Virus record (IMG/VR): IMGVR_UViG_3300036853_000096 | Span: 1-44,877 of that record | Direction: 5' to 3' (one strand) | DNA length: 44,877 nucleotides | Origin: a virus | Shown: in pieces, positions 18,289-34,399 of the stretch | How positions within the stretch are numbered: the first letter of the stretch is position 1 | Layout: each line of letters starts with the position of its first letter | Notes under the pieces: generated by a model | The model's input: the letters and a program-made list of their open reading frames with translations, nothing else | Databases searched by the model: none | Told to the model about the DNA's origin: nothing | Program-made: the position numbers and the translations under genes

Positions 18289-18782
18289 TGCCGTGGTACG
18301 ACGCAGCGCTTCTGGCGGGGGCCGTCGTAGCCATGGCTCTGTCGTGGAAACTACCTAGAGCCAGATTGTGGATAATCCTGGGTGCGCTGTCCTTCTTCCT
18401 GTCTTATCAATGGCATGTGGCTGGCTGGCCCTACCCGGCGGTGTTTGGGGCATCGACTAATTTAGCTGTATGTTTCGCTATTTATGCGAAAGCCGAGCTA
18501 AAATACGAAATGCGCGTATGGAACTGCTTCCACCTCATGATCGTGATCGATCTGCTGTACTTGTCTGGTTGGATAAAATCGCGCTATGATTTCGCAGTCG
18601 GGCTTGAGCTTGCTAATTGGTTGGGGATTCTTGTCATCGGGGTTGCAGGCCTTGCCGACCGGGCGGGCTATGGACATAATTGGCTGCTTTCTCACCGCCG
18701 CCGTTCTGGCTGGGTTCATGATATCTTTGCGCGCCTATGGGAGACGCGAGAGCGCCCTCCGTTCTGGCACGCCAACGAATGA
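18288..18782 (+). CDS. Polytopic membrane protein, 164 aa
   Basis: About five hydrophobic segments are visible, at residues roughly 6-22, 27-42, 50-66, 78-98 and 108-125, separated by short loops. A basic, aromatic C-terminal tail ends RPPFWHANE. Codon use and GC content are lower from about 18450 to 18680 than in the flanking genes, hinting at acquired sequence. Its place in the lysis region could mean a holin-related or superinfection-exclusion role; no family is recognised. Confidence 0.55.
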   Translation: MPWYDAALLAGAVVAMALSWKLPRARLWIILGALSFFLSYQWHVAGWPYPAVFGASTNLAVCFAIYAKAELKYEMRVWNCFHLMIVIDLLYLSGWIKSRYDFAVGLELANWLGILVIGVAGLADRAGYGHNWLLSHRRRSGWVHDIFARLWETRERPPFWHANE

Positions 18783-30166: not shown

Positions 30167-32245
30167 ATGGGTTTCATGACGAGGCGAGACTTGAACATAA
30201 AAGCGCCCGACGATTTTGCAAGTGCCGCCGAGTGGGCCAACGCTTACCGCGCTCTCGGCCTCGCCGTCATCCCCGCCAGCGGCAACAAGAAAATCCCGCT
30301 GGGCGAGTGGAAGGAATTCCAGGGCGGCATCCCCCAGCCCGTGCACGACCGCTGGTACGGCGCCGGCGGCGACAACCTCTCGAATTACCGCATGGGCTTC
30401 CTGACCGGCGCCGCGTCGATCGGCGACGGATGGAAGCTGCTTCTCATAGACCTCGACGAAAAGGGCGCCATCTCCGGCAACGCGACGTGGGATCACTGGA
30501 TCGGCGAGAACGAGCTCGGCGTCGATCCCGAGACATGGCGCGCCAGGACCGGCGGCGGCGGCCAGCACATCTATTTCAAATACCCGGCAGACCTTCACAT
30601 CAGGAACACCCAGGAGACGATCGCCGGCATCGACGTTCGCGCCGAAGGCGGATTCGTGATCGCCCCGCCATCACTCCACGCGAGCGGCCGGCCGTATACG
30701 TGGCTCTATTCCCCATTCGAGACGGAACTCGCCGAGGCGCCGCAATGGCTGCTCGACAAGGTCGGCGCGTCGGCGCGGCCGTTCGATGCATCGCCGCGGG
30801 AGAAGGGCACCACGCCGGAACATGCCACGGATACGTGGGGCAACATTGTCGACGGCCGCGACGCTTACATGCGCGATGTCGTGTGGGCGGCCGTGGTCGA
30901 CCTCTATCGGGAATGCCCGATCCAGCCTCCAGAGCGCGAATCCGAAACTAAGTGTCTGGAGGCATATGCCACCTACTTGCGCCGCGTGCGACCGCAGGAA
31001 CTGGGCAAGTCTCTTGAGGACGAGGGGCGTGGCATTACCGCATTTCGCCAGAAATGGGCTTACGCAATGCGGCAGTGGGACGGCAAGGTCCACGAAGCCG
31101 CCGGCTATCCTTCGTTCAAGGATCGGCAGCCCACCTGGGATTTCGATGACGAGCTGATCGCACGCAGGGTTGACCCTGTGGCGTCAGCGCCAGCGTTGGT
31201 GCCGCCAGTCCGCTTCGTTTTCGAGACCATAGGCGATCTCCGCAAACGCCCGCCGGCCAAGTGGCTTGTCGACGGCTGGATACCGGAAGGCGCCATGGGA
31301 ATATTCTACGGCAAGTGGGCCGCAGGGAAATCGTTCATCGCCTTCGATCTCGGCCTGCACATTGCCTACAGCATGGAGACCTGGCACGGGGTCAAGCTGC
31401 CGGAAGGCGGTGCCGACGTGCTGGTGATCGCACGCGAAGGCCACCAGGGGTTCGTCCAGCGCATAGACGCCTTCAAGCAGCACTATGGCCTCGTCGACGA
31501 CACCGATCGCATCTTTTTCATGCGCGCGTCGGTGTCGTTCCAGAACGCTGACGATTTCAAGGCGCTGTGCACGGCCATACAGGCCCAGGGAAGAGCCTAC
31601 CGGCTTGTCCTGATCGATACCGTCGCCCGGGTTCTGCCAGGCGCGGATATGAACACCCAGGAGACGGCAACGGCGTTCATGGAGCGCTGCGCATACATCT
31701 CCCAGATCACGACTGCGGCGACGATCGGCGTCCACCACCAGAACAAGTCGGGCGGCATGATGGGCTCGACCTATTTCGAGGCCAACGCCGATTTCGTGTT
31801 CGAGGTCGAGCGGCACAATCCGGACGAAACGTCGCTGCAGTCCGGCGAGATCACATGCACGAAAATGAAGGACGGCGAGGACAACTGGAAGCGCGCCGTC
31901 CGCTACGAAAAGATCGCTACCGGGCCGACAGAGAGCAGCCTCGTCGTCAAGTCGATCGGTGGACCGGCGGCGGAAACGACGAGCAATCTACCCCCACGTG
32001 AAACGTGTCGCGCCATCCTGGATATGGTCCGCCGGCACTGGGACGAGAAGCATCCACTCAACCATACCGCGCAGGCCAAGGCTTCCGGCAAGTACGCGCC
32101 CCGGATCATCGGCAAAGCGTTCGGGCTCGAGCCGAAGGTTGTCGACAGGCTGATTCTCGAGTGGATCGATAACGACATCCTGCGTCTCGAAATATTTAAC
32201 ACAAATACCAAAGCCAAGGGGCTTCGGGTGATCGGGAGCATCTGA
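30167..32245 (+). CDS. Bifunctional primase-polymerase / RepA-type helicase
   Basis: The 692-aa product has a Prim-Pol domain at residues about 20-210: LAVIPASGNKKIPLGEWKEF, LLIDLDEKG with catalytic acids, GGGGQHIYF, and GIDVRAEGGFVIAPPS. A RepA/AAA_25-type ATPase follows, with Walker A GKWAAGKS at residues 382-389 and a Walker B-like RLVLIDTVARV. The C-terminal 90 residues resemble a winged domain. It would open DNA and prime synthesis for phage replication. An iteron array lies directly downstream. A Met three codons later is an alternative start. Confidence 0.88.
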   Translation: MGFMTRRDLNIKAPDDFASAAEWANAYRALGLAVIPASGNKKIPLGEWKEFQGGIPQPVHDRWYGAGGDNLSNYRMGFLTGAASIGDGWKLLLIDLDEKGAISGNATWDHWIGENELGVDPETWRARTGGGGQHIYFKYPADLHIRNTQETIAGIDVRAEGGFVIAPPSLHASGRPYTWLYSPFETELAEAPQWLLDKVGASARPFDASPREKGTTPEHATDTWGNIVDGRDAYMRDVVWAAVVDLYRECPIQPPERESETKCLEAYATYLRRVRPQELGKSLEDEGRGITAFRQKWAYAMRQWDGKVHEAAGYPSFKDRQPTWDFDDELIARRVDPVASAPALVPPVRFVFETIGDLRKRPPAKWLVDGWIPEGAMGIFYGKWAAGKSFIAFDLGLHIAYSMETWHGVKLPEGGADVLVIAREGHQGFVQRIDAFKQHYGLVDDTDRIFFMRASVSFQNADDFKALCTAIQAQGRAYRLVLIDTVARVLPGADMNTQETATAFMERCAYISQITTAATIGVHHQNKSGGMMGSTYFEANADFVFEVERHNPDETSLQSGEITCTKMKDGEDNWKRAVRYEKIATGPTESSLVVKSIGGPAAETTSNLPPRETCRAILDMVRRHWDEKHPLNHTAQAKASGKYAPRIIGKAFGLEPKVVDRLILEWIDNDILRLEIFNTNTKAKGLRVIGSI

Positions 32246-32251
32246 GATGCG

Positions 32252-32431
32252 TTGCGGAGGTCTTGCGGAAGTCTGCGGAACTACCCCTGAAAAACTCAAT
32301 GAAATCAATGCGGAACTCATTTGCGGAAGTGCGGAACTAGCATCAAAAAACTCAATGAAATCAATGCGGAGGTTGCGGAACTCACCACCCCCATACTTCG
32401 TATGGATGCTGCGCTGCTCCGCAAGCAGCGC
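32252..32431. other. Putative replication origin: iteron array and hairpin
   Basis: In the 210-bp gap after the primase-helicase gene, TGCGGA occurs eight times in the same orientation (starting 32253, 32264, 32274, 32309, 32322, 32330, 32365, 32374). A 25-bp direct repeat beginning AAAAACTCAATG is found at 32290-32314 and 32346-32370. The palindrome CATAC-TTC-GTATG lies at 32392-32404. An 8-bp stem (GCGCTGCT/AGCAGCGC, 32411-32431) has a loop that carries the reverse element. Iterons, A-rich repeats and hairpins next to replication genes are typical of origins. Confidence 0.65.
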
Positions 32432-32454
32432 GCATCGGAAGGAGATTCGTCCTC

Positions 32455-33021
32455 ATGGCCTATGACTTCGATAACGCGACCGTAGCGTCGAAATCCAAAA
32501 CTGACTTAGCCGTCGAGATGGTGGCAGCCCTCAACAAGCTCGACGCCACCGCACGCGCCATGGAGCGAAAATGGGGCGCTGCCCGATTGCCCTCCCTCCT
32601 CCCCGACGAATTGGCAGCCAGGTTCTACAACCAACACCGGAAGGTTGCAGAGGCCAGCCATGCCCATGACGACAGGCTGACCGTCGTCGAGGCTGGCAAG
32701 ATGCTCTCGGCATGGCAGTACCTCGACGCCGAGGCTGCCCGTCTCGGCGCCGAGCCGATCCATCCCAGCGTTTGGGAAGTAGTCTCTGACGGCAAGGTGA
32801 TCGCCATTGTCCGCGACGAGGACGAGGCAGCCGCGGTCGATCCCGGCGATCGCTACGTCACGGTCTACACCCTGGCCGAAATTGCCCGCCTGCTCGAAGC
32901 CAATCCAACCGTCGCCGCGATCAAGGAAAAATTCCCCGGCGCCCAGGTGGTCGAGCCGAGGACGCGACCTCCGGACACATTCTGGGAGCGAGGCGACGAC
33001 ATCCCGTTTTTCAATCTGTGA
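32455..33021 (+). CDS. Hypothetical protein, 188 aa
   Basis: It starts behind AAGGAGATTCGTCCTC. The product (MAYDFDNATVASKSKTDLAV) has a helical N-terminal half (AEMVAALNKLDATARAMERK-type) and a mixed second half with a VWEVVSDGKVIAIVRDEDEA strand pair. It lies between the iteron array and the DnaA-like gene, so a replication role is possible. No family is recognised. Confidence 0.6.
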   Translation: MAYDFDNATVASKSKTDLAVEMVAALNKLDATARAMERKWGAARLPSLLPDELAARFYNQHRKVAEASHAHDDRLTVVEAGKMLSAWQYLDAEAARLGAEPIHPSVWEVVSDGKVIAIVRDEDEAAAVDPGDRYVTVYTLAEIARLLEANPTVAAIKEKFPGAQVVEPRTRPPDTFWERGDDIPFFNL

Positions 33022-33042
33022 ACGAGTAAAGGAACTACCAAA

Positions 33043-33531
33043 GTGGCAAAAGTGATCTACGCACCGGAGAACGATTCGCCGGGGAATTTCGAAAGGGGGC
33101 TGCCGCGGATCGACGTGCTCGCCCATCGCGTGCTCGCCATGCACCGGGACATGACACCGCGCGGGGACAAGCCAGTCCTGCCCGAACGGCAGACCATGCG
33201 CCAGATCAAAATTCGCTCGGAAAAAGCCAGCCGCTGGCTCAATCGCCAGGGATTGGAACGGCTTGCCGCCGAGCGTGATGCCTACGGCACTCCCACATGG
33301 CGAGCCGTGGCCGCAGCCGCCGTGCTCGAGACCGGGTTGCCCATCTCGTGGAGCGATATCGTGGGGCCTAGCCGCAAGCGGCATATCGTCCATGCGCGCG
33401 GCATGGCGATCTGCTCCGTTCGCAGGCAAAAGCCCCATTTGTCGCTCTGCAAGATCGGAAAGCTGTTCGGCGGGCGTGACCGCACGACGGTCCTGAATTC
33501 CCTCCAGAAACACGGCGCGGTGCAGCCATGA
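33043..33531 (+). CDS. DnaA domain IV-like DNA-binding protein
   Basis: Residues about 85-157 of this 162-aa protein match the C-terminal DNA-binding domain of DnaA. ISWSDIVGPSRKRHIVHARG aligns with the basic loop and ARQ/AM helix, and IGKLFGGRDRTTVLNSLQKH aligns with the DnaA signature I-G-x-x-F-G-G-R-D-H-T-T-V-L. The ATPase domain is absent. The first 80 residues are unrelated (MAKVIYAPENDSPGNFERGL). It lies 0.6 kb from the iterons and probably binds DnaA-box-like sites to start phage replication or to regulate genes. Confidence 0.8.
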   Translation: MAKVIYAPENDSPGNFERGLPRIDVLAHRVLAMHRDMTPRGDKPVLPERQTMRQIKIRSEKASRWLNRQGLERLAAERDAYGTPTWRAVAAAAVLETGLPISWSDIVGPSRKRHIVHARGMAICSVRRQKPHLSLCKIGKLFGGRDRTTVLNSLQKHGAVQP

Positions 33532-33845
33532 TTTGCCCTTGCTGCGGCCAGGCTTTAAACAACCGTGCCTCCCTTGAAAGTCTCGCCAGCGCACCGCTCG
33601 CCAAGTTGGAACACCGCATCATCGATGCAATGGTGCGCGCCTATCCGCGCTCCGTCACCCGCGCCGGTCTCGTCGACGTGCTCTACTTTGACGATCCGGA
33701 TGGCGGGCCTGACAGCGCCGAGAACATCGTCGCCGTCATGATGGTGCGGCTGCGCAAGAAGTTGCCGCCCTATGGCTGGACCATCCCCAACTGTCGCTCG
33801 GGTTCCGGCAACTATGGTCGATACAAGCTGGAACCGTTGCCATGA
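33528..33845 (+). CDS. Winged-helix regulator with N-terminal Cys cluster
   Basis: The 105-aa product overlaps the DnaA-like gene by 4 bp. It opens MICPCCGQAL, a compact Cys cluster that could be half of a zinc site. A winged helix-turn-helix of the OmpR/response-regulator effector type follows: KLEHRIIDAMVRAYPRSVTR, then SAENIVAVMMVRLRKKLPPY and a wing with YGRYKLEPLP. It has no receiver domain. It is the second of a run of DNA-binding proteins ahead of the late genes and may regulate late transcription. Confidence 0.65.
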   Translation: MICPCCGQALNNRASLESLASAPLAKLEHRIIDAMVRAYPRSVTRAGLVDVLYFDDPDGGPDSAENIVAVMMVRLRKKLPPYGWTIPNCRSGSGNYGRYKLEPLP

Positions 33846-34399
33846 CGACTTGCCCGTCGCCCGCAAATCAGTTACGCATGGCCTCGCCTCACCGTGGCTT
33901 TTCCCCATCAGGTCCGCCAGACCGGGGTGAAGCCTTGAAACAACAAATCGACCTTGCCGGTTACGACGGCAACGTTCTCGTCCGCGTCTCAACGCGCATT
34001 ACCAGTCATCGCGTCGACCATCGCATCATGCGATGCCGGCCAGGATCGTTCGACTGGCGCTACGCCAAGCGGCAATCAGCCCTCTACCACGCCGGCAACC
34101 AGTTCAGGCTGCTCTGGGAGAAGGCAGGCATCGCCCTTGCCAGCTCGGTCGACTTCATGCGCGGCACCAAGTCGGGCAGCCAGATGGGAATTTCTGAAAG
34201 TCGCCTGCATGCCCTCCAGAGCCTCAGCTGCGTCGTAACCGACCTCGGCAGGTTTTCCACAGAGCGGCTGATCGATTATTGCGTGCTCGGTCACACGACA
34301 GCTGAGCTGGCAAACAAGCACGCGCTGCCCGATCGTGATATGGCCGCCGTGCTCGACAAGGATTTGCGGTCGTGTGCCGATGCAATGAGGTATTCGTGA
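33842..34399 (+). CDS. Putative late regulator, 185 aa
   Basis: It overlaps the winged-helix gene by 4 bp. After a Pro-rich N-terminus, residues about 70-185 read ALYHAGNQFRLLWEKAGIAL and SRLHALQSLSCVVTDLGRFS, ending in an HTH-like pair (LIDYCVLGHTTAELANKHAL). The pattern resembles DUF6456-type proteins and other small phage regulators encoded just before late genes. An antiterminator or activator role is inferred from that position, next to a promoter-terminator arrangement. Confidence 0.55.
   Translation: MTTCPSPANQLRMASPHRGFSPSGPPDRGEALKQQIDLAGYDGNVLVRVSTRITSHRVDHRIMRCRPGSFDWRYAKRQSALYHAGNQFRLLWEKAGIALASSVDFMRGTKSGSQMGISESRLHALQSLSCVVTDLGRFSTERLIDYCVLGHTTAELANKHALPDRDMAAVLDKDLRSCADAMRYS

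Follow-up and report, generated by a model that had tools for sequence, protein, structure and literature searches.

P4 alpha unites a primase, a helicase and a C-terminal winged-helix origin-binding domain in one protein, which binds repeats, unwinds and primes (PMC4234260). In SaPI Rep and SCCmec Cch2, the iterons lie directly downstream of the helicase gene and are read by the C-terminal domain of the helicase (PMC7581432). pRN1 ORF904 joins a Prim-Pol domain, a helicase and a C-terminal winged helix, with its origin in a non-coding stretch just downstream, and RSF1010 oriV combines a RepA-type helicase with iterons and hairpin priming sites, RepA, RepB' and RepC being separate proteins (both PMC4234260). 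Mobile elements commonly encode proteins in which a Prim-Pol domain is joined to a RepA-type helicase and a winged helix; Kazlauskas et al. 2018 suggested, as a suspicion only, that the winged helix reads the origin (PMC5862659). The parts of that study available to us give neither a DNA element nor a specificity residue, both of which we propose here for a protein with the same kind of domain order.

The window that we analysed, 44,877 nucleotides long, is the whole of IMG/VR virus record IMGVR_UViG_3300036853_000096 and carries P22-like portal, capsid, terminase and integrase genes. Its primase-helicase resembles P4 alpha in being a multi-domain protein with a C-terminal winged helix, but the primase is of the Prim-Pol type (PF09250) rather than the Toprim type of P4, the helicase is a RecA/RepA-type AAA_25 domain, and no second crr-like array was seen in the window. 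Iterons directly downstream of the helicase gene recall SaPI Rep; unlike in SaPI Rep and Cch2, however, the protein families are others, the primase is fused, the iterons form three groups, the spacer motif between them is conserved, and across the family the repeat sequence follows a wing-tip residue. In pRN1 the helicase is of the SF3 type and the origin is a large stem-loop that lacks iterons, whereas the window has iterons and short hairpins. The RepA-type helicase and the iterons are shared with RSF1010, to whose priming sites the short hairpins may correspond, but what RSF1010 distributes over three proteins is here one polypeptide with a Prim-Pol domain. Because its primase and helicase families differ, the window protein falls outside membership of both P4 alpha and SaPI Rep. 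By analogy, nevertheless, it may work as they do, the helicase C-terminal domain reading iterons beside its own gene.

Our analysis indicates that the array beside the primase-helicase gene, together with the hairpins that trail it (32253-32435), is very probably a replication origin, read by the C-terminal winged helix of the primase-helicase. In that protein the Prim-Pol domain (residues 25-194) is followed by the helicase (355-529) and then by the C-terminal domain, for which AlphaFold2 predicts helices at domain residues 3-18, 36-44 and 48-60, strands at 64-70 and 75-80, and a wing between the strands. No Pfam family is assigned to the window's copy of this domain, but related copies weakly match, among others, the winged-helix families FtsK gamma and FeoC. 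A Foldseek search against the PDB returned winged-helix proteins, at class level only and none significant, and against a viral library the C-termini of other phage primases matched the winged-helix domain. From the structural model, we are confident in predicting that the primase-helicase C-terminus folds as a winged helix.

The array itself consists of eight TGCGGA elements on the plus strand, spanning 32253-32382, the first of which begins 8 bp past the primase-helicase stop codon, as also in relatives. The full box is the 9-bp TGCGGA[A/G][C/G]T. All eight copies reported in the first-pass annotation, which had read this gap as an iteron origin with altered DnaA boxes, are present, and the spacings of 11, 10, 35, 13, 8, 35 and 9 bp are exact. 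The boxes fall into groups of three, three and two, starting at 32253, 32309 and 32365 with a period of exactly 56 bp, and within groups they lie about one helical turn apart. This is the strongest 6-mer cluster of the window, no other 6-mer forming a comparable one; in 40 order-2 Markov simulations of the window, the maximum was 6 copies of any 6-mer per 180 bp. Coordinates are collected in Table 1.

Table 1. Coordinates of the proposed origin, its putative initiator and the nearby DnaA-like gene
Feature	Position	Strand	Evidence or remark
Primase-helicase gene, 692 aa	30167..32245	+	Pfam PF09250 E=1e-24, PF13481 E=8.4e-29
C-terminal winged helix (residues 609-692), proposed to recognise the origin	31991..32242	+	AlphaFold2 pLDDT 92
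Codon for N680 at the wing tip, the residue proposed to read box positions 1-2	32204..32206	+	covariation z=13.2
Iteron 1 TGCGGAGGT	32253..32261	+	
Iteron 2 TGCGGAAGT	32264..32272	+	
Iteron 3 TGCGGAACT	32274..32282	+	
A+T-rich spacer element TCAATGAAATCAAT, candidate unwinding element	32296..32309	.	motif kind in 39/61 homologous arrays
Iteron 4 TGCGGAACT	32309..32317	+	
Iteron 5 TGCGGAAGT	32322..32330	+	
Iteron 6 TGCGGAACT	32330..32338	+	
Second spacer element TCAATGAAATCAAT	32352..32365	.	
Iteron 7 TGCGGAGGT	32365..32373	+	
Iteron 8 TGCGGAACT	32374..32382	+	
Hairpin 1 CCATAC-TTC-GTATGG	32391..32405	.	
Hairpin 2, including GCGCTGCT-CCGCA-AGCAGCGC	32406..32435	.	8-bp hairpin at 32411-32431
Inverted box core TCCGCA in hairpin loop	32418..32423	-	
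Stand-alone DnaA domain-IV-like HTH protein	33043-33531		PF08299, E = 4.5e-13

In A+T content, the spacers between the groups belong to the top 0.1-0.8% of 25-mers in the window. A 25-bp A-rich repeat with a 56-bp period had been noted before and is indeed there, in the form of a 41-nt repeat that is 88% identical; its proposed role as an unwinding element is plausible, the spacer motif being conserved in 39 of 61 arrays. The 8-bp hairpin carrying TCCGCA was likewise found where it had been placed. Folded together as DNA, the two hairpins (32383-32460) give z = -3.5. An Rfam search gave no match. Cumulative GC skew of the window, which had been suggested as a check on the origin, has no clear turning point at the array and is uninformative.

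Does the array belong to the primase-helicase, or does it merely lie beside it? A search with the primase-helicase returned 13 viral loci, and those with a homologous C-terminus (L145, L146, L148, L150, L155 and L156) have the same array in three groups, beginning from a few bases to about 20 bp past the stop codon, with spacers such as TCATTGAAATCATT. The box is TGCGGA in L146, L147 and L155, TACGGA in L145, L148 and L150, and GGCGGA in L156. Rhizobium phage RHph_N65 and EBPR siphovirus 5 carry the array too, and it stands behind homologous primase-helicases in many phages and prophages and in one phage-plasmid, its spacing, spacer motif and trailing hairpin being retained. Loci that share the Prim-Pol half (62-70% identical) and the 188-aa gene but have another helicase half show different repeats at this place (TGTCACCATTCGCGAC, TTGTCACCACTTGTCG), and thus the array travels with the helicase C-terminus. 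These other repeats lie at L151:9470-9680, L152:9515-9670 and L153:6750-6935, and an inverted copy precedes the next gene.

A wider survey with a profile of helicase plus C-terminus yielded 80 viral and 68 genome loci. Counting complete genes with enough downstream DNA, we found at least three copies of CGGA[AG][ACG]T no more than 500 bp past the stop codon in 40 of 102 loci with the C-terminal domain and in none of 54 without it. In many of the remaining domain-bearing loci the array lies another 0.5-4 kb downstream, or the box at this place has drifted (as in GGCGAGGGTT or TGGCGTAGGT); some have no CGGA-type array within the DNA covered, and among 83 non-redundant domain-bearing loci, 11 are without any repeat family of at least five copies and several others have repeats unlike the box. 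Helicases that lack the winged-helix domain often have repeats of their own directly past the stop codon, such as the lineage-specific ones, in 8-9 copies, behind RepA-type helicases in L259, L268, L290 and L257. In L224, an array of TGCGGATAA, which resembles the DnaA box even more than the boxes of the window do, lies 1.8-2.0 kb past a winged-helix-bearing helicase, and no DnaA_C gene was detected at that locus.

In the 61 arrays, the distances between boxes have peaks at 9-12 and 33-36 bp, and about 122 kb of control DNA does not contain the spacer motif. Past the arrays, the DNA has more structure than expected (mean z -2.0 vs -0.1 in controls), with z below -2 at 30 of the 61 loci. Within 100 bp past the array, a full inverted box occurs at 23 of the 61 loci against 1.9 expected, and the TCCGC core at 35 against 7.9 expected; the window's TCCGCA is of the core type, not a full inverted box.

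Over about 60 related loci, the first two letters of the box can largely be predicted from one residue in the primase-helicase tail. With K at position 680 the box tends to begin with GG, with N or H it tends to begin with TG, and with D it tends to begin with TA. Among 50 representatives, the residue-680 column scores z=13.2 and the next column 5.7; when box positions 7, 8 and 10 were scanned for covariation, the signals were weaker and bound to lineages. A prediction fixed beforehand was correct for 7 of 8 later loci: K with GG in 5/5 (two of these five being close relatives of the training set), N with TG in 1/1, H with TG in 1/1 (the Caenibius phage-plasmid), and D with TA in 0/1 (L435, whose boxes are mixed). 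On a tree of the helicase domains, from which the winged helix was excluded, K and GG agree in 6/6 phylogenetically independent pairs; the test for D and TA agrees but is not significant, the pairs being too few, and K/GG and D/TA each have only a few independent origins. Nature also supplies a near-isogenic comparison, with D and TACGGA in L145, L148 and L150 vs H and TGCGGA in L146 and L155, and the window itself (N, TG) has a sister, L159, with K and GG. Exceptions are L172 (D, TCCGGA), L435 and L189 (N, with mixed boxes among which TG is most frequent), and the lineage that has S, A or V here carries boxes that are mixed, AC or TA. For the broader claim, we find our judgement evenly divided between acceptance and rejection: that a single wing-tip residue of the PrimPol-RepA initiator would set the first two iteron bases in a large family of phage origins that has not been described before (K for GG, N or H for TG, D for TA, small residues relaxed), that neighbouring lineages would switch origin specificity by changing residue and repeat, and that a conserved inverted box would lie in the adjacent hairpin.

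How, then, should the likeness of the repeats to DnaA boxes be read? TCCGCA is similar to the DnaA-box core TCCACA, and 0.7 kb from the array lies the gene at 33043, whose DnaA domain, claimed in the first-pass annotation, we confirm as a domain-IV-like HTH. Its product has the rare GGRDRTTV motif, an H-to-R change in the DNA-reading motif that we found in one other DnaA-like protein in IMG/VR (L015). It might be supposed that the array is bound by this protein, the arginine reading G for A, or by host DnaA opening the origin, but we consider this highly improbable. A DnaA_C-domain gene was found at just 4 of the 61 array loci and is missing from the DNA covered at the other 57, so that no cognate DnaA-type protein is seen to be inherited with the boxes, although some loci are short fragments and a missing gene is therefore no proof locus by locus. 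L254, the only DnaA_C-bearing array locus with both a cleanly aligning domain and TGCGGA boxes, keeps the canonical histidine, and hence the H-to-R change does not track the box; with the arginine variant also nearly absent elsewhere, we dropped the idea that H434R reads the altered box. DnaA boxes are taken to be TTA-TnCACA 9-mers (PMC5742627), whereas the window boxes on the other strand read A[CG][CT]TCCGCA, without the TTA half, and the TACGGA and GGCGGA boxes of relatives have lost invariant DnaA-box bases. The sole perfect DnaA box of the window, TGTGGATAA, lies at 18367-18375, far from the array. A search for the same core beside DnaA-domain phage genes, also proposed earlier, found no comparable TGTGGA or TGCGGA clusters among the loci listed, about 120 with a canonical DnaA HTH. 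Relatives of the 33043 protein were not found in IMG/VR, and among GenBank phages only in RHph_N28_2, where the DNA covered contains no such array. Given the covariation, the C-terminal domain of the primase-helicase is the better-supported reader of the box. Thus, of the earlier interpretation, the iteron-type origin stands, on position, architecture, spacers, hairpins and the tie to the replication protein, and is the best reading of the array; the altered DnaA boxes are not supported, given the 4 loci and the drift of the core.

The array also stands upstream of 32455-33845 and could regulate the operon instead of, or besides, starting replication. Past the array come the gene for the 188-aa protein of unknown function, the 33043 gene, an OmpR-like wHTH gene at 33528, a gene at 33842 whose DUF6456 match is weak (E=0.023, below the curated cut-off), and then the terminase. 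Initiators often autoregulate, which counts in favour of an operator. So does the role of GafA/GafY-type proteins, which have a DnaA-like HTH, in activating GTA operons (PMC9638019, PMC11150451). A small DnaA-like gene preceding a DUF6456 gene is the layout of Hyphomicrobiales GafA homologues (PMC9638019), and 33043-34399, with its DnaA-like HTH, OmpR-like wHTH and weak DUF6456 match before the terminase, resembles the GafY/GafZ late-activator layout. From this GafA-like gene layout, the 33043 protein may by analogy act as a late regulator rather than as an initiator. That the array is purely an operator, bound by the primase-helicase winged helix, the OmpR-like 33528 protein or the GafY-like 33043 protein and controlling the late operon while replication starts elsewhere, nonetheless seems to us unlikely: there is no sigma-70-like promoter in 32100-32600, in L145, L146, L148, L150, L155, L156, RHph_N65 and EBPR siphovirus 5 the array stays with the helicase C-terminus, and neither the 33528 nor the 33043 protein turned up in the close relatives L145-L157. 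That the repeats are simply part of a coding sequence is scarcely credible. An open frame of 72 aa (32247-32465) does cover the array, but it has no family match, the box spacings are not multiples of three and differ among relatives, and the frame is not conserved in the sequences of L145 and L148; we rejected the coding reading on these grounds.

How might an iteron origin of this kind work? As inferred from sequence, the C-terminal winged helix of the primase-helicase would bind the 9-bp iterons, and origin activity, with melting and priming, would follow. Since the iterons are grouped and about one helical turn apart, several initiator subunits would be aligned along the same face of the DNA. 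Melting of the A+T-rich TCAATGAAATCAAT spacers that separate the groups would follow and let the helicase ring assemble. Synthesis on the exposed strand would be primed by the Prim-Pol domain, with the trailing hairpins as possible sites. The same helicase, winged helix and array occur on the circular plasmid p1 of Caenibius sp. WL (L449, NZ_CP081845.1; 38,127 bp), which resembles a phage-plasmid in having capsid, terminase and integrase genes. No other replication gene is annotated on p1 in the PLSDB gene table, which can be incomplete, and the module fits a self-sufficient replicon.

More generally, our analysis carries the caution that a DnaA-like repeat near a DnaA-domain gene can be a coincidence. 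For the PrimPol-RepA-winged-helix initiators, a site, a domain and a residue are now proposed, together with natural pairs of proteins that differ at residue 680, and thus origin recognition and replicon compatibility become directly testable.
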